A DNA stretch of 22,938 nt from a virus. The DNA is taken from the IMG/VR virus record IMGVR_UViG_3300034375_000215, positions 1-22,938 of that record. One strand, given 5' to 3'. Positions 5,220-17,973 of the stretch are shown piece after piece. Every line of letters starts with the position of its first letter. Within the stretch, counting starts at the first letter, position 1. A program made the translations under genes and the position numbers. Under the pieces are notes generated by a model. The model did not search any database and was not told where the DNA came from. It saw nothing but the letters and a program-made list of their open reading frames with translations.

Positions 5220-5245
5220 TACAAGGGCGAGAAATCGCCCTTGTA
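5220..5245 (+). terminator. Hairpin behind the capsid gene; partial terminator or mRNA stabiliser
   Basis: An 11-bp perfect stem (TACAAGGGCGA against TCGCCCTTGTA) closed by a GAAA tetraloop begins 9 bp after the capsid stop. GNRA loops make very stable RNA hairpins. No T-run follows (ATCAACTAGG), so a classical intrinsic terminator is not shown. It is better read as a partial terminator, a processing site or a 3' stabiliser that raises capsid mRNA relative to the genes after it. The next gene's ribosome site lies just outside the stem. Confidence 0.7.
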
Positions 5246-5262
5246 TCAACTAGGAGAAAATT

Positions 5263-5568: not shown

Positions 5569-6054
5569 ATGGCAAACTATACTGGTGCTGATGTAATTAC
5601 TCATGCTGATGTAACAAAGTATCAACCTGATGCTTTTGATTTTGGTATTGCAAATAACGCAACAGAAACAGTTAATTTCTTTGCACAAACTACAAATGAT
5701 ATTTTAAGAGCATTAAGAGTTGAGTGGTGGCCTGTATATAAAACAAACATATTTACAGATATTACAGTTTTAAACACAGCAGAAATGGTTAATACAAAAG
5801 TTAATTTAGATCAGTTTGAGAGGGCTGGTGTTTATCTATTTCTAGGAAGATTCTTTTTACCAGCATTAACTAAATTTAGACCAGAAACAGAAAAAGATAG
5901 ATTTGAAAGAATGGCTGAATATTACATGGGTCAGTACAATATTGAATGGCGAATGATATTAGAAGATGGTGTAGAGTATGATTCAGATGCAGATGGAAGT
6001 ATTGTATCTAATGAAAGAGAACCTTTACATGGATATAGACGATTGACTAGATAA
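5569..6054 (+). CDS. Head-tail connector / adaptor-type protein
   Basis: 161 residues, no motif that I recognise with certainty. It lies between the capsid gene and a gpG-like tail completion gene, where siphoviruses encode head-completion connectors (HK97 gp6 / SPP1 gp15 type). It is soluble, mixed helix, with many aromatic residues (VEWWPVYK near 51-58; YYMGQYNIEWRMIL near 117-130) and an acidic stretch DGVEYDSDADGS near 132-143. A non-helical N-terminus (MANYTGADVITHADV) is followed by a Tyr/Phe-rich segment. Start spacing is poor for ribosome binding, so translation is probably coupled to the preceding peptide. Its stop overlaps the next ATG (TAATG). Confidence 0.55.
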   Translation: MANYTGADVITHADVTKYQPDAFDFGIANNATETVNFFAQTTNDILRALRVEWWPVYKTNIFTDITVLNTAEMVNTKVNLDQFERAGVYLFLGRFFLPALTKFRPETEKDRFERMAEYYMGQYNIEWRMILEDGVEYDSDADGSIVSNEREPLHGYRRLTR

Positions 6055-6533
6055 TGGCTATACAAGCAAGTATTAAATCAAACTCTAAATTAATATCAAA
6101 AAAATTTAAACACCTAGAATCTAAATTACCTAGAATAATTGATAAAGGATTAAAACAAGCTGGGTTTCAATTATTAGATATTATAAGAACTAAAACACAA
6201 AAAGGACAAGATTTTAGAGGTAGACCATTTGCACCATACTCACAAGGTTATTTAAAACAATTAACAAAAGAGGGAAAACCAACAAGAGTAGATTTATTTA
6301 ACACTGGTAGAATGTTAGGAAGTTTAACTCCATCATCTACTGTTAAAGCCTCTGGTAAAAACAAAGTATCATTAGCTTTTAGTAATGGACAAATGCGTCA
6401 AAGAGCATTGTTTAATCAAGTTCTTGGAAAAAACAAAAGAGAGTTTTTTGGGTTTAATTCTCGTACAGAAAAGATTATAAGTAAGCAATTCAATAGATTT
6501 GTAGAAAAAGAAATTAGAGGAATAAAATTATGA
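6054..6533 (+). CDS. Tail completion protein, virion morphogenesis (gpG-like) family
   Basis: 159 residues, basic. The segment KGQDFRGRPFAPYSQGYLK (about residues 50-68) and the following LFNTGRMLGSL (about 82-92) match the pattern I know from phage virion morphogenesis / tail-completion proteins such as Mu gpG and HK97 gp10-type minor proteins, which connect head and tail. A second conserved-looking stretch, KREFFGFNSRTEKII near 128-142, fits the same family. It overlaps its neighbours on both sides (TAATG in front, ATGA behind), so the three genes form a translationally coupled block. Confidence 0.75.
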   Translation: MAIQASIKSNSKLISKKFKHLESKLPRIIDKGLKQAGFQLLDIIRTKTQKGQDFRGRPFAPYSQGYLKQLTKEGKPTRVDLFNTGRMLGSLTPSSTVKASGKNKVSLAFSNGQMRQRALFNQVLGKNKREFFGFNSRTEKIISKQFNRFVEKEIRGIKL

Positions 6534-6967
6534 GCATAAGAGAAGATATAGCTTCAAATATACATAGTGTTATAAATGCAATATCAAGCCCAGATATTAA
6601 GTTATGTACTAGACAACCTTTTGAATTAGAAGAATTATCACAGCAACAATATCCAGCAGTAGTAGTGCAGACTTCTGAAGAAACTAGAGAAGATGCAGAA
6701 CTAGGAAGTGGTGCTAAAACAAGATCAGGTACTATTGATTTTGTAATATTAGGTTTTGTCAAAGGAACAGATACTAATATTGATACAGCTAGAAACGCAC
6801 TTATTACAGCTATTGAAACTGCTTTAGAATCTGATATTACAAGAAACAACAAAGCATTAGATACTGAAATTACACAAGTTGAAACTGATGAGGGAACTTT
6901 GTTTCCTGTTGGTGGTATAAGAATGGTTGTAAGATGTATATATGAGTATCAAGCTGGAACACCATAG
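6530..6967 (+). CDS. Tail terminator protein-like
   Basis: 145 residues. Position (directly before the tail tube gene, directly after the gpG-like gene), size and the strand-helix order fit the tail terminator family (lambda gpU / SPP1 gp17-type), which caps the tail tube and joins it to the head. Visible elements are an N-terminal helix (REDIASNIHSVINAI), a strand YPAVVVQTSEE near 45-54, a long central strand FVILGFVKGTDTN, a helix TARNALITAIETALESDI and a final GIRMVVRCIYEYQ strand. The ribosome site AGAGGA lies upstream inside the preceding gene. A related neck or minor tail protein is the main alternative. Confidence 0.68.
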   Translation: MSIREDIASNIHSVINAISSPDIKLCTRQPFELEELSQQQYPAVVVQTSEETREDAELGSGAKTRSGTIDFVILGFVKGTDTNIDTARNALITAIETALESDITRNNKALDTEITQVETDEGTLFPVGGIRMVVRCIYEYQAGTP

Positions 6968-6975
6968 GAGATAAC

Positions 6976-7188
6976 ATGACAACTAAAATTATAAACAAAA
7001 TAGAAAAGAAAATAGACCAAATAGAAAAAATGCACGATAAAGAGTCTATGTTATGCGAAGAAGTAAAAGATTTATTATCTGAACTAAAAGAGAACCAAGA
7101 AGAAGATAATCAAGAGTGGGAAGAAGATTTAGATGATGATAATTTTGAAGAAGATGAAGAAGATATTGACGAACAAGAAGAAAACTAA
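6976..7188 (+). CDS. Small acidic coiled-coil protein, unknown
   Basis: 70 residues. The first 40 form a charged amphipathic helix (KIINKIEKKIDQIEKMHDK), and the last 30 are almost only Glu, Asp, Asn and Gln. The gene has a textbook ribosome site (TAGGAGA, 6 bp upstream). It lies between the tail terminator and tail tube genes. The acidic tail could mimic nucleic acid or neutralise one of the basic small proteins, but this is a guess. No family recognised. Confidence 0.7.
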   Translation: MTTKIINKIEKKIDQIEKMHDKESMLCEEVKDLLSELKENQEEDNQEWEEDLDDDNFEEDEEDIDEQEEN

Positions 7189-7199
7189 TAAAAGGACTT

Positions 7200-7367
7200 A
7201 TGGCTAAAGATATTAAATTATTTAAAGATGGGAATGAAGTTATAATTAACGAAACTCAACTTGATAATTTTTTAGATTTAGGTTGGAAGCAAGAAAAACA
7301 AAATATATCAACAAGTAAAAAGGAAAATAAAAAATGGCAACACACTTTGGAAAAGAAGGAGTCGTAA
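7200..7367 (+). CDS. Small protein overlapping the tail tube gene
   Basis: 55 residues, ATG with a good AAAGGA site 5 bp upstream. It begins IKLFKDGNEVIINETQLDNF (residues 5-24) and then DLGW, a compact pattern that faintly resembles the N-terminus of the small protein at 5263 (IKL, Gly, II, then Gly-aromatic). The C-terminus is basic. Its last 34 bases overlap the start of the tail tube gene in another frame, so the last eleven residues or so are probably constrained by that gene. No known family. Confidence 0.6.
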   Translation: MAKDIKLFKDGNEVIINETQLDNFLDLGWKQEKQNISTSKKENKKWQHTLEKKES

Positions 7368-7720
7368 CTGCTGGTGGAACTGGTATAGGCGAACTAACTG
7401 GTTACACACTTGAAACTACTGCTGATGTTGTTGAAGATACTCAATTATCAGATGCAACTAAATCATTTGTAAGTGGCAGAACATCATTTTCAGGAACTTT
7501 AGAAATGAGTTATGATGAAACTGATTCTCCACAACAAACATTAACTGCTGGAACTACAATAGCTTTTATATTAGCACCAGAGGGTAATTCATCAGGAGAT
7601 GAAACTTTTACAGGATCAGGAATTGTTACAGGCATGAGTGTCAATGTTACTTTAGATGGAATAACTACTAGATCAGTTACATTTCAAGGCACAGGGGCAT
7701 TAACAAGAGGAACTGTATAA
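7334..7720 (+). CDS. Major tail tube protein
   Basis: 128 residues, almost all beta-strand with Gly, Thr and Ser turns. The N-terminus (MATHFGKEGVVTAGGTGIGELTGYTLE) and the motif SGRTSFSGTLEMSYD near 46-60 are typical of short tail tube proteins of the lambda gpV / TP901-1 class, which stack as hexameric rings. Position directly before the chaperone and tape measure genes supports this. An AAGG ribosome site lies about 11 bp upstream. No Ig-like C-terminal decoration domain is present, so it is a minimal tube subunit. Confidence 0.88.
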   Translation: MATHFGKEGVVTAGGTGIGELTGYTLETTADVVEDTQLSDATKSFVSGRTSFSGTLEMSYDETDSPQQTLTAGTTIAFILAPEGNSSGDETFTGSGIVTGMSVNVTLDGITTRSVTFQGTGALTRGTV

Positions 7721-7729
7721 TCCTAATTT

Positions 7730-8083
7730 ATGTCAGTTATCGATAGAGTAAAGACTCATTTTGAAACTCTTAACACAATTACTATTGAAGTTGAGGAGTG
7801 GAAAGACGAGCATGGTAATCCGAGTATATTTTATTCTGAACCACTTACCCTTGAAGAAAAAAACATAATCTTTAAAAAGTCTAGTAACTTTCAAGACTTA
7901 ACTGTTCTTGTTGATTTGCTTATAATGAAACTCCAAGTCAAAAACGACAAGGGAGAAATGATTAAAGCATTTGAACCTTTTGATAAACTTGCTTTAAGAA
8001 AGAAAGCAGACTCTAATGTTATTGCTAATATTGCTAATAAAATTCTTTTAGACACTAATTACGAGGATGCCGAAAAAAAGTAG
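7730..8083 (+). CDS. Tail assembly chaperone, short form (gpG-like)
   Basis: 117 residues. It sits between tube and tape measure genes, where lambda-like phages encode gpG and the frameshift product gpGT. These bind the tape measure protein and tail tube subunits during assembly and are not kept in the virion. Visible features are a strand region TITIEVEEWKDEHGN, the sequence YSEPLTLEEKNIIF (about 35-48, the usual 'lt..ek' segment) and a helical C-terminal half. The frame ends in GAA AAA AAG TAG, where AAAAAAG is a frameshift heptamer. No ribosome site is obvious. Confidence 0.8.
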   Translation: MSVIDRVKTHFETLNTITIEVEEWKDEHGNPSIFYSEPLTLEEKNIIFKKSSNFQDLTVLVDLLIMKLQVKNDKGEMIKAFEPFDKLALRKKADSNVIANIANKILLDTNYEDAEKK

Positions 8084-8250
8084 TTAGCGACCCTGACATC
8101 AGGTCGCTTTTAGTAATAGCAGACAGACTCCACATTACAATTCAAGAAGTATTAGATATGCCAGTTAGCCATTATAATCTTTGGTTAGCATACTTGAAAA
8201 AAGAGCAAGATGAGTATAAAAGTCAAGAGAGAATAGCGAAACACAGATAA
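7730..8250 (+). CDS. Tail assembly chaperone, -1 frameshift product (gpGT-like)
   Basis: Reading 7730-8080 in frame and slipping back one base at A AAA AAG (8074-8080) continues from codon 8080 for 56 more residues to TAA at 8248, giving a 173-residue fusion. The extension has the look of gpT-type domains: DIRSLLVIADRLHITIQEVL, then MPVSHYNLWLAYLKKEQDEY. The downstream frame has no ATG, GTG or TTG near its beginning; its first ATG is deep inside at 8158. So frameshifting is the natural way to express it. In lambda the T domain recruits tube subunits to the tape measure-gpG complex. The tape measure gene starts 6 bp after the stop. Confidence 0.85.
8074..8108 (+). promoter_or_regulatory. Programmed -1 ribosomal frameshift signal
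   Basis: The slippery heptamer A AAA AAG occupies 8074-8080, in the correct phase, and the zero-frame stop TAG follows at once. After a 5-nt spacer a hairpin begins: AGCGACC (8086-8092) pairs perfectly with GGTCGCT (8102-8108) around a 9-nt loop. An alternative fold gives 5 bp, one bulged C and 4 more bp (8092-8095 with 8100-8103). Heptamer, spacing and stem form the standard bacterial stimulator arrangement. Confidence 0.88.
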
Positions 8251-8256
8251 TAAATT

Positions 8257-9834
8257 ATGGCACAACAACTTAAAATAGACATTGTAGCAAAAGATAGAAC
8301 CAAACAAGCATTAGGTAAGTTACAGGGAAGTCTAGGTAGATTAAAAAATGCTGTATTTAGTTTAAAAGGTGCTTTTGTAGGTTTAGGTGCTGGTCTAGTA
8401 GTTAGATCATTTGTTAATACAGGAAGAAGCATAGAAGATTTAAATGTTAGATTAAAACAATTATTTGGTAGTACCCAAGAGGGTGCTAAAGCATTTGAAG
8501 TAATGTCTAACTTTGCTTCTAAAGTTCCTTTTTCACTAGAACAGATTCAAGAAGCATCAGGAAATTTAGCAGTAGTTGCTGGAGATTCTGAAAGACTTGC
8601 AAAAATTTTAGAAATAACAGGTAATGTTGCGGCAGTTACAGGAATAGATTTTAGAACTGCTGGAGAACAAATACAAAGATCATTCGCTGGTGGTATAAGT
8701 GCGGCAGATATTTTTAGAGAAAAAGGTGTTAGAGATATGCTTGGTTTTAAAGCTGGTGCAACTGTTACAGCAGAAGAAACTGTAAAAGCATTTCAAAAAG
8801 TTTTTGGTAAAGGTGGAAAGTTTGGTAATGCAACAGACGAACTTGCTACAACATTTACTGGAACTTTATCTATGCTTGGAGATAAATTATTTAACTTTAA
8901 AAGAGGAGTTGCTGGTGCTGGTTTCTTTGATGAACTTAAAAAAGAGTTCAAAAGTTTAAATCAGTTTATAGAGGAAAATGCATCAGCATTTGAAACAATA
9001 GGTAGAGCAATAAGTAAAGTTTTAGTATTTGCTGTAAGAGCATTAGCTGGTGCAATAAGAGCAGTTGGTAACGCAACTAATTTTATTAAAAGACAGATAG
9101 AAGATATACAAAGATTATTAGGTTTTGATGTTCCTTTTGTTGTTGAAATAGAAAAAGGTAAAAAAGTTATAAAAGAAGTAAATTTTGATTTAGTTAAACA
9201 AAAAACATTATTTGAAAAAATTAAAGAGGAACTTAAAAACTTAAATGAGGGTTTTAAAATACAAAAAGAAATAGTTGGAATGATAAAGTCTGGTGTGGGT
9301 AGTGTTTCAAAATCTATTGCAGAATCAATAGTATTAGGTAAACAATTAAATGAAACATTTAAGAAGTTAGCACAACAAATATTAATAAACATTATTTCTA
9401 AAACTATTGAAAGACTTGCTTTACTTGGTATAGAAAAATTATTATTAGGAGATATTGTTAAAGAAGAAGAAAAAAAAGATAATTTAATTAGACGACAGAA
9501 TACAAATTTAAAAAGACAAATAGCACTTAATGCTATGACAGGGGGTGGTGGAAGTTTTTTAAGTGGTTTATTTGGTAAAGCATCAGGTGGTGCAGTAGCA
9601 AAAGGACAACCAACTATTGTAGGAGAAAGAGGTGCAGAATTATTTATACCAAATTCATCAGGACAAATAACACAATCTGCAAGAGGAACTGATGGTGGAA
9701 GTACAACAGTTAATTTCAATATAAACACAGTAGATGCTTCTGGCTTTGAAGATTTATTAGTTAGATCAAGAGGAACTATTACACAATTAATTAATAATGC
9801 TGTTAATGAAAGAGGGAGTAGAAATTTAATATAA
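8257..9834 (+). CDS. Tape measure protein
   Basis: 525 residues. It sets tail length and is ejected with the DNA. The N-terminus (MAQQLKIDIVAKDRTKQALG, then SLGRLKNAVFSLKGAFVGLG) and the segment VPFSLEQIQEASGNLAVVAG are typical of tape measure proteins. A hydrophobic stretch lies near 250-266 (VLVFAVRALAGAIRAVG), and helical segments fill the middle. From residue 444 comes the C-terminal motif GGAVAKGQPTIVGERGAELF, then IPNSSGQI, seen in many tape measures. At roughly 0.15 nm per residue the length predicts a tail near 80 nm, which is an inference. No lytic transglycosylase domain is visible. Start TAAATTATGG has no Shine-Dalgarno sequence, and the stop overlaps the next start (TAATG). Confidence 0.92.
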   Translation: MAQQLKIDIVAKDRTKQALGKLQGSLGRLKNAVFSLKGAFVGLGAGLVVRSFVNTGRSIEDLNVRLKQLFGSTQEGAKAFEVMSNFASKVPFSLEQIQEASGNLAVVAGDSERLAKILEITGNVAAVTGIDFRTAGEQIQRSFAGGISAADIFREKGVRDMLGFKAGATVTAEETVKAFQKVFGKGGKFGNATDELATTFTGTLSMLGDKLFNFKRGVAGAGFFDELKKEFKSLNQFIEENASAFETIGRAISKVLVFAVRALAGAIRAVGNATNFIKRQIEDIQRLLGFDVPFVVEIEKGKKVIKEVNFDLVKQKTLFEKIKEELKNLNEGFKIQKEIVGMIKSGVGSVSKSIAESIVLGKQLNETFKKLAQQILINIISKTIERLALLGIEKLLLGDIVKEEEKKDNLIRRQNTNLKRQIALNAMTGGGGSFLSGLFGKASGGAVAKGQPTIVGERGAELFIPNSSGQITQSARGTDGGSTTVNFNINTVDASGFEDLLVRSRGTITQLINNAVNERGSRNLI

Positions 9835-10454
9835 TGTCAGGTTCTTTCCCTATATCAACTGCTAAATTTGGAACTTTAGGAATAAAGTCAATTCAAAATA
9901 CAATTATATCTAAATCAGTATCAGGTAAAAGATTAGTAAGACAAATAGATAACCAAAGATTTGCTTTTACAGTTCAGATTATTACTGCAAAAAGATCAGA
10001 TGTATATGGAGATTTAATGGCTTTTATAATGAAACAAAGAAGTCAAAAAGAAACTTTTACAATCATACCACCAGAAATAGAAGATGCTAGAGGTAACGAG
10101 TCAGGTACAGTTTTAGTTAATGGTGTTCATGCAGTTGGAGATACAACAATCGCTTGTGATGCTTTTGCTGGAGATGGTGCTGGTAGATTTAAAGCTGGAG
10201 ATTTTTTAAAGTTTGCTTCACATAATAAAGTTTATATGGTTGTTGCAGATGTAACAAGTTCTAGTAATGCGGCCACAGTTACAATAGAACCACCTTTACT
10301 TGTAGCACTAGCAAACGATTCAGTAGTTACTTATGACAATGTTCCTTTTACAGTTTCATTAACAACAGACATTCAAGAGTTTGGAGTATCTGGTGCAGAT
10401 AAAGATGGTAATTTATATTATGAGTTTCAATTTGATGTTGAAGAAGCATTGTAG
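9834..10454 (+). CDS. Distal-tail (Dit)-like / minor tail protein
   Basis: 206 residues, mostly beta. The N-terminal segment IISKSVSGKRLVRQIDNQRF (about 25-44) followed by AFTVQI resembles a pattern I know from siphovirus minor tail proteins encoded just after the tape measure ('SGrrqvRQidgqrf.ftv'). These belong with the ring that joins tube to tip, as lambda gpM or Dit proteins do. Residues 90-175 contain a strand-rich insert with GTVLVNGVHAVGDTTIACDA, which could be a small Ig or OB-like domain. Coupled to the tape measure by TAATG, and followed immediately (0 bp) by the next ATG. Confidence 0.65.
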   Translation: MSGSFPISTAKFGTLGIKSIQNTIISKSVSGKRLVRQIDNQRFAFTVQIITAKRSDVYGDLMAFIMKQRSQKETFTIIPPEIEDARGNESGTVLVNGVHAVGDTTIACDAFAGDGAGRFKAGDFLKFASHNKVYMVVADVTSSSNAATVTIEPPLLVALANDSVVTYDNVPFTVSLTTDIQEFGVSGADKDGNLYYEFQFDVEEAL

Positions 10455-16726: not shown

Positions 16727-17347
16727 ATGAATTACGATATTATACCTTTATTTTCTAAAGTTTTTTATATAAAAAAACTAGATATTGATACTAAAAAAAT
16801 TGTATCCATGATGAATAATGATTTTGAAAAAGCTGGTTCAAAAACATCAGTAGATATTGAGAATATATGTTCATCTTCAATCTCAATGTCTGTGTTAGAA
16901 CAAAATAAATTTAGTTCTTTAAAGAAACAAATAATGAAAGAATTTTATAATTTTGCTCATAATGTAATGAAATATGACAATGAGTTTAAAATAACAACAT
17001 CTTGGTTTACAAAAACTAAAACAAGTCAAAGTTCAAACTATCATAATCATAATAATTCAATGATTAGTGGAATATTATATTTACAAACAGATGACAATTC
17101 TGGAAATATAAGTTTTGAAGATTTTAGTAATCGTAGATTTAACTTAAATGTTGAAAAATATAATATACATAATTGTTTAGAGTATCAGTTTAAACCTACA
17201 GATGGACTTATGATTCTATTTCCTAGTGAAGTACATCATAAAATATTAAAAAATAATTCTAACATTGTAAGACATTCACTAGCTTTTAATTTTTTACCTA
17301 TTGGTAAAATAGGAGATGGAGATAATTATATAAATATACAAATATAA
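16727..17347 (+). CDS. 2OG-Fe(II) oxygenase-like protein 1
   Basis: 206 residues. It matches the phage 2OG-Fe(II) oxygenase-like family (PF13759-type) by order of motifs: N-terminal PLFSKVFYIKKL, a Trp-containing strand (TSWFTKTK), YHNHNNSMISGILYL (H106, H108, then S-G), ILFPSEVHHKI (H170/H171) and VRHSLAFNF (R182, S184). The two histidine clusters would hold iron and the RxS would bind the 2-oxoglutarate carboxylate. The canonical HxD acid is replaced by HNH, as is usual in this family. Such enzymes hydroxylate proteins or small molecules; the substrate is unknown. It lies directly behind the adhesin genes, and a close relative follows. Confidence 0.78.
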   Translation: MNYDIIPLFSKVFYIKKLDIDTKKIVSMMNNDFEKAGSKTSVDIENICSSSISMSVLEQNKFSSLKKQIMKEFYNFAHNVMKYDNEFKITTSWFTKTKTSQSSNYHNHNNSMISGILYLQTDDNSGNISFEDFSNRRFNLNVEKYNIHNCLEYQFKPTDGLMILFPSEVHHKILKNNSNIVRHSLAFNFLPIGKIGDGDNYINIQI

Positions 17348-17355
17348 AATAATTT

Positions 17356-17973
17356 ATGAAAAATTCAACAATACAAAATTTATTTCCAACACCAATTTAT
17401 CAAAATAACATAGGAAGAATATTTAACAAAAAAGAATTAGAGTTTATAAAAAATGAAAAAAATTACTGTGTTAAAAATGTTGGCAATGTTAATACTATTA
17501 ATAATTATATATTAAACAAACCAGAATTAAAAAATATAAAAAACTTTATACAGCAATGTTGTGATGATTATTTAAAAAAAATTATATCTCCTAAAAATAA
17601 TGTTAAACTTTATATAACTCAATCTTGGTTAAACTATACTAATAAAGATGAGTTTCATCATTCTCACGAACACGCAAATTCAGTAGTATCTGGTGTTTTT
17701 TATTTTAATTGTAATAAAAAAAATGATTCTATTAAATTTACAAATCCTAAAGGTTATGAACAAATAAAACCTGAAATAAAAAATTTTAATATATGGAACT
17801 CTGATACATGGTGGTTTTCTGTTGAAAGCGGAGAATTAATAATGTTTCCATCTTCAACAAAACATCAAGTAGATACAAAGCATGGTACAAATACTAGAAT
17901 AAGTTTAGCATTTAATACTTTTTATAAAGGCACAATAGGTTCAAATAGTTCTTTAACAGAATTGATATTATAA
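17356..17973 (+). CDS. 2OG-Fe(II) oxygenase-like protein 2
   Basis: 205 residues, same architecture as the preceding gene: LFPTPIYQNNI at the N-terminus, TQSWLNYTNKDEFHHSHEH, then ANSVVSGVFYFN (H104, H106, S112, G113), IMFPSSTKHQV (H170) and TRISLAFNTF (R181, S183). The motif spacing is nearly identical to gene 1 (HxHxNSxxSG in both; distal His 64 residues on), so the two are paralogues or a pair acquired together. Outside the motifs they have diverged strongly. This copy has the more canonical motifs. The codon composition is even more A+T-rich than the tail genes. Starts 8 bp after gene 1, no ribosome site visible. Confidence 0.82.
   Translation: MKNSTIQNLFPTPIYQNNIGRIFNKKELEFIKNEKNYCVKNVGNVNTINNYILNKPELKNIKNFIQQCCDDYLKKIISPKNNVKLYITQSWLNYTNKDEFHHSHEHANSVVSGVFYFNCNKKNDSIKFTNPKGYEQIKPEIKNFNIWNSDTWWFSVESGELIMFPSSTKHQVDTKHGTNTRISLAFNTFYKGTIGSNSSLTELIL

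Follow-up and report, generated by a model that had tools for sequence, protein, structure and literature searches.

The mechanism of −1 frameshifting in tail chaperone genes is known in long-tailed phages, and the frameshift has already been announced for Rhodobacter phages related to the phage considered here; that announcement names a −1 frameshift of the tail assembly protein (PMC4882933). The Rhodobacter phages RcRhea, RcCronus, and RcSaxon (Cronusvirus) carry a homologous chaperone plus T domain (26% identity, 86% coverage), and the RcRhea deposit contains both a short CDS and a joined CDS, with the slippery heptamer directly before the stop codon. The description of RcZahn reports no clear sign of the usual tail assembly chaperone frameshift, unlike most phages described (PMC8601537).

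The locus analyzed here lies in a viral contig of 22,938 bases (IMG/VR record IMGVR_UViG_3300034375_000215) from a marine virus of bacteria, the whole of which is referred to as the window. Similar to RcRhea, the heptamer of the window stands directly before the stop, but it reads A_AAA_AAG TAG rather than G_GGA_AAC TGA; the downstream fold differs as well, and RcRhea has a high-GC host. The lambda gpG/gpGT system differs in its heptamer (G_GGA_AAG), in a distance of 15 nt from heptamer to stop, and in its longer T domain, and homology searches with the window chaperone returned no sequence match to lambda. The HK97 tail assembly chaperone is, like that of the window, a −1 fusion by annotation, and its structure, 2ob9, is among the two best fold matches; it differs in that a pattern search found no in-phase X_XXY_YYZ within 90 nt of its stop, and the Foldseek E value is 0.034. 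Outside tail genes, Escherichia coli dnaX shares A_AAA_AAG, a sole tRNA-Lys(UUU), and a downstream stem-loop (PMC5009743, PMC3711429), but the dnaX shift shortens the product whereas the window shift lengthens it, and the Shine-Dalgarno-like element of the window is putative. Also mentioned is a reversed dnaX type in which the shift site is immediately followed by the stop (PMC5009743). In Rous sarcoma virus and barley yellow dwarf virus, the stop lies immediately 3′ of the slippery heptamer (PMC4373837), as in the window, but these are unrelated viruses and genes, read by eukaryotic ribosomes.

The Chaperone Gene and Its Neighborhood

The features of the locus are as follows.

7334–7720, + strand: major tail (tube) protein gene, directly upstream of the chaperone (phrog_1407 major tail protein, E 1.9e-8)
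7730–8083, + strand: 0-frame ORF for a gpG-like tail assembly chaperone, 117 aa (reading frame and predicted fold)
8063–8066, + strand: GAGG, Shine-Dalgarno-like, a possible 5′ stimulator 7 nt ahead of the heptamer
8074–8080, + strand: slippery heptamer A_AAA_AAG, in the X_XXY_YYZ phase that tandem −1 slippage needs
8081–8083, + strand: 0-frame stop TAG, against the heptamer
8086–8108, + strand: stem-loop of 7 bp, starting 5 nt past the heptamer (folding and conservation)
8080–8250, + strand: −1 frame extension, a gpT-like domain of 56 residues plus stop
8257–9834, + strand: tape measure gene (phrog_973 tape measure, E 1.6e-14; Pfam TMP_3 at 2.6e-8 is under the curated cut-off)

The chaperone gene is thus flanked by the major tail protein gene and the tape measure gene, and a distal tail protein gene (phrog_1302) comes after the latter. 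Positions 5569–10454 as a whole hold tail tube, tail terminator, chaperone, tape measure (525 aa), and distal tail genes; this gene content indicates a long tail, despite the suffix P in the names of related isolates. Elsewhere in the window, two adjacent 2OG-Fe(II) oxygenase genes are found at 16727–17973 (Pfam PF13759, E 1.2e-18 and 2.8e-20).

The closest isolates are Pelagibacter phages, with chaperone identities of 90% (HTVC112P), 75% (HTVC111P), 51% (HTVC202P), and 47% (HTVC026P). By sequence, the window belongs with the SAR11 phages HTVC111P/112P, and its presumed host is taken from these two isolates. In all four isolate records, the short CDS is the only chaperone annotation and the extension is absent, which bears out the expectation of the earlier note that the 173-residue product would be missed in annotation. 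The HTVC112P and HTVC111P records instead have a minus-strand hypothetical CDS called across the extension. A literature search on pelagiphage frameshifting (incl. PMC10504331, PMC8163748) found no description of the site in the portions of text it covered; the paper on the HTVC111P/112P isolates lay outside that search.

The identity of the gene as a tail chaperone, proposed from the letters alone, is upheld by its family, its neighbors, and its fold. The joined 173-aa protein matches phrog_16513, “tail assembly chaperone”, at E 3.2e-9 over positions 6–158 of 160, whereas the two halves searched singly match neighboring parts of that profile at E 0.29 and 0.02 (PHROGs). The 0-frame protein alone matched tail chaperone families weakly, no tail chaperone model of Pfam was found above cut-off, and a PDB sequence search with the chaperone profile gave no matches at E up to 1. 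In fold comparisons, the predicted 0-frame structure (pLDDT 79.9) has as its two best PDB matches YqbN (3klu) and the HK97 chaperone (2ob9), with probabilities of 0.92 and 0.98 and E values of about 0.03. In a viral structure library, both domains match one 160-residue RcRhea chaperone, with E values of 9.5e-5 and 0.071.

Anatomy of the Frameshift Cassette

The 0-frame gene ends in the codons GAA (8072–8074), AAA, AAG, and TAG (8081–8083), and the spacer between heptamer and stem is TAGTT (8081–8085). From 8080, the −1 frame runs for 56 codons until TAA at 8248–8250, such that the joined product has 117 + 56 = 173 residues. A TAA at 8056–8058 closes the −1 frame on the 5′ side, and a −1 shift must therefore occur within 8059–8083. 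The only start codons in the −1 frame, ATG 8158 and TTG 8194, are both within the extension domain; the claim that no start precedes this gpT-like domain holds. The cassette described in the earlier note (heptamer in phase, immediate TAG, 5-nt spacer, 7-bp hairpin) is present as stated and is kept in near relatives. Trypsin would cleave the junction peptide proposed there, EKKVVSDPDIR, at its KK.

Irrespective of phase, AAAAAAG occurs 22 times in the window with 21 expected, and since this count is near expectation the motif by itself would mean nothing. Among the 4117 codon positions of 13 window genes, the in-phase A_AAA_AAG occurs once, namely at this site, and any X_XXY_YYZ occurs in phase 48 times. 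An Rfam scan of the window yielded no family at gathering score. The GAGG element, whose function would be that of a stimulator, includes a codon that is GAG in 98 of 106 near relatives and GAA in 8, with GAG making up 16% of Glu codons.

Conservation of the Heptamer and Stop Codon

At least 585 of 599 candidate stretches were confirmed as IMG/VR relatives of the window chaperone. Viral loci were compared in sets of 80, 80, 80, and 40, the first three being the best 80 of 585, 398, and 492 confirmed; together with six phage loci and the window, they comprise 287 sources. Two loci that were too short past the stop (L114, L116) were dropped, leaving 285 sources, which reduce to 210 distinct sequences over the stretch compared. 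Loci were assigned by best query to clade 1 (window, HTVC111P/112P; 109), clade 2 (HTVC026P/202P; 65), clade 3 (DSL-LC06-like; 35), and phi3LM21 (1).

An in-frame A_AAA_AAG or A_AAA_AAC is found at most four codons from the stop in 210 of 210 distinct relatives, so that the comparison called for by the earlier note turned up no relative lacking a slippery site. The stop lies directly against the heptamer in 199 of them (109 in clade 1, 57 in clade 2, and 33 in clade 3); the distance is one codon in 8 and four codons in 3. With the in-frame heptamer kept throughout and the abutting stop in 199, the cassette is judged not to be a chance arrangement. The heptamer is AAAAAAG in 109/109 clade-1 loci and AAAAAAC in 101/101 others. 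The layout had been called a compact variant: the stop is indeed directly against the heptamer, but “variant” does not apply, as the layout is the rule in this phage branch and has precedents such as RcRhea.

Two bacterial MAG contigs outside these counts (L293, L294) have the same two cassette types. The contig of L293, which bears a pelagiphage-type chaperone, cassette, and stem, is binned as a Campylobacteraceae MAG and is probably a mis-binned phage contig. Among deeper relatives, of which 6 of 20 matching records were examined for the cassette besides the earlier isolates, TGA abuts a G_GGA_AAC heptamer in Rhodobacter phage RcRhea and Dinoroseobacter phage R4C; in three Roseobacter phages (CRP-811, CRP-406, and CRP-823), TAA abuts A_AAA_AAC; and in Pseudomonas phage PARCL1pr, a single codon separates G_GGA_AAC from the stop.

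In clade 3, the codon that supplies the first A of the heptamer encodes any of six amino acids (E, A, S, G, I, V), and A occupies its third position in 35/35 loci against a background of 39% A at third positions of the upstream domain. On a tree of 42 rows, built quickly with the heptamer codons left out and with 16 of 38 inner branches weakly supported, at least nine amino-acid changes at that codon compare with no change of its A. These counts indicate that the heptamer is selected as a heptamer, as tandem slippage requires. On the same tree, the switch between AAC and AAG takes a single change, as does gain of the hairpin, and both set clade 1 apart; together, they may have raised the clade-1 frameshift rate.

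The Downstream Stem-Loop

The stem arms are AGCGACC (8086–8092) and GGTCGCT (8102–8108), enclosing a 9-nt loop, and the minimum free energy is −12.1 kcal/mol (z −3.09 against dinucleotide shuffles). Two places on the + strand of the window, about 5222 and 8086, hold a perfect 7-bp stem with five or more G-C pairs and a loop of 3–12 nt. The stem at about 5222–5250, the other GC-rich perfect one, comes right after the major capsid gene and is perhaps a terminator. When the stretch at the chaperone gene was recoded with its amino acids fixed, 87 of 2000 recodings folded as well, because the residues S-D-P...R-S-L lend themselves to pairing. It is the conservation of the stem that supports it strongly, rather than folding of the window alone.

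All seven pairs are intact in 104 of 109 clade-1 loci, which contain 20 different loop sequences, and the remaining five (L178, L193, L200, L201, L202) have one A-G mismatch. Two loci (L010, L046) have altered stem bases and retain pairing through G-U. The distance from stem to heptamer is fixed in all 109 loci. The stem codons AGC, GAC, AGG, and TCG are found in 105, 100, 106, and 106 of 106 clade-1 rows (the 109 loci minus the broken L003 and two that are too short at one end), and their shares among synonymous codons in ten other window genes are 2, 14, 4, and 2%. Covariation carries little information, as most stem pairs never vary. The otherwise almost identical L003 has one hairpin base fewer, which closes its −1 frame after 10 codons (L003:3351–3380); this may be a sequencing or assembly error, and its right stem arm was taken one base earlier owing to the missing base.

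Against synonymous recodings, the mean z of the fold is −2.94 in clade 1 (39 of 40 randomly sampled rows), −0.53 in clade 2 (40 rows), and −1.63 in clade 3 (35 rows), the last a weak tendency. Since clade 2 has no strong stem and clade 3 shows just this tendency, a stem is not required in every lineage. The strong hairpin and the AAG ending are, among the loci aligned, confined to clade 1.

The −1 Frame Extension

In clade 1 (107 rows), dN/dS is 0.12 in the −1 frame versus 0.13 in the upstream domain, and in clade 2 (57 rows) the values are 0.21 and 0.12; synonymous change is saturated in clade 3 (33 rows; pS 0.759, pN 0.259). Stops interrupt both remaining frames in 107/107 clade-1 and 57/57 clade-2 rows. 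The substitution pattern indicates that the extension is under selection as a protein, consistent with the gpT-like domain first suggested for it. Its predicted fold consists of three helices (pLDDT 88.8).

Within the extension, codons 38 (TAC) and 39 (TTG) are invariant in 108/108 clade-1 rows and codon 46 (TAT) in 107/107 (window 8188–8221), TTG being 4% of Leu codons. TTGAAA and TATAAA, spaced by 15 nt, are present over this segment in 104 of 109 clade-1 loci. They are possibly a promoter or other element ahead of the tape measure gene; a promoter scan did not list the pair at 8188–8221.

Alternative Explanations

An RNA polymerase adding an A at the A run would place some of the mRNA in the long frame before any ribosome reads it. 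A homopolymer A run is present, and in clade 2 the run is exactly A9 in 65/65 distinct loci, a length for which efficient transcriptional slippage is described (PMC5009743). The run is, however, A7 in the window and in 109/109 clade-1 loci and A6 in 17 of 35 clade-3 loci, and RcRhea and R4C carry G_GGA_AAC. The threshold given for A runs is n > 7 (PMC3711429), and the window falls short of the A or T run of at least 8–9 associated with programmed transcriptional slippage (PMC3711429, PMC5009743). As a polymerase slip would need neither the fixed phase nor the abutting stop nor the stem, it is a quite improbable source of the long product here. Chances are slimmer yet that the extension is made alone, without fusion, by reinitiation after TAG from ATG 8158 or TTG 8194. 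The in-frame ATG encodes a Met shared by 106/106 near relatives, but clade 3 has no Met at this place, and an internal start would drop the first 26 residues, among which S3, D4, R8, S9, L10, L11, A14, R16, and L17 are kept in 95–100% of 106 rows. It would also leave heptamer, phase, and stem unexplained, and the phrog_16513 profile spans both domains.

The hairpin could instead be an intrinsic terminator or attenuator with no role in frameshifting, given the TTTT after the stem in the window and a terminator-like site scored on the − strand. On the + strand, no terminator was scored at the hairpin; the T run is not kept (the Leu codon is CTG in 14 and CTA in 3 of 106 relatives), and the constant stem-to-heptamer distance in clade 1 also speaks against this reading, which is as slight a prospect as reinitiation. 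Two ORFs in neighboring frames might also arise from a chaperone gene split by a frameshift mutation, yet the arrangement is found in 210/210 distinct relatives, down to about 28% identity, under purifying selection, which makes decay a negligible prospect. Stop read-through was rejected as a candidate, the 0 frame closing again inside the compared stretch in 107/107 clade-1 rows.

Proposed Mechanism

The sequence anatomy, its conservation, selection on the extension, stem conservation, family, and fold are results of this analysis, and lambda-type −1 ribosomal frameshifting, yielding gpG- and gpGT-like chaperones from one gene, is very probably the mechanism. From these results we infer slippage and its stimulation by the stem, with a rate, a host, and tail-assembly roles that are likewise presumptive. 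The majority of ribosomes would end at TAG 8081 and release the 117-aa gpG-like protein. The rest, fewer in number, would have tRNA-Lys(UUU) paired to both AAA and AAG while the stem-loop sits at the mRNA entrance; a one-base backward slip would then allow both tRNAs to re-pair with AAA, and reading would resume at GTA 8080 to give the 173-aa gpGT-like protein. If the roles parallel those in lambda, the tape measure protein would be bound by the gpG part, and tail tube subunits would be recruited by the T domain. The RcRhea homologous gene, deposited as a joined CDS, is in favor of this mechanism. Two Pelagibacter-genus genomes, read of 12 searched, each have one tRNA-Lys, with anticodon UUU, among 32 and 30 tRNA matches; both were reached via a MAG titled Candidatus Pelagibacter, the host of the window itself being presumed. 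In E. coli, dnaX shifting is tied to the sole tRNA-Lys (PMC5009743).

A Possible Role of the Abutting Stop Codon and Implications

The distance of 0 nt from heptamer to stop is short, as the mean distances given with PRFect are 26 nt in training phages and 36 nt in Xu phages (PMC10885494) and that of lambda is 15 nt. A stop placed at this codon is reported to lower frameshifting, in competition with release factor (PMC4373837). In the phages compared, three different heptamers (G_GGA_AAC, A_AAA_AAC, A_AAA_AAG) and lineage-dependent stems are found, yet the stop stayed against the heptamer. It is conceivable, though rather unlikely, that the stop codon is a working part of the site, with some slipping occurring post-translocation, with the stop in the A site and in competition with release factor, and with the A9C clade relying partly on transcriptional slippage. 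If so, the gpG:gpGT ratio would follow termination capacity. Clade 2 (L084, L085, and others; HTVC026P-like) has exactly A9C in its 65 distinct loci, without a strong downstream stem, and this run is a possible site of transcriptional slippage in phages sharing the host genus.

The locus is a well-supported −1 cassette of the known tail chaperone type that is left out of deposited annotation in these phages, and its description adds a gene product that had been lacking for a phage group with SAR11-infecting isolates. It also provides a natural series of −1 sites in which the stop abuts the heptamer, the heptamer itself differs, and a strong stem is present in some and absent in others; such a series is useful for asking if the stop codon takes part in bacterial −1 frameshifting.
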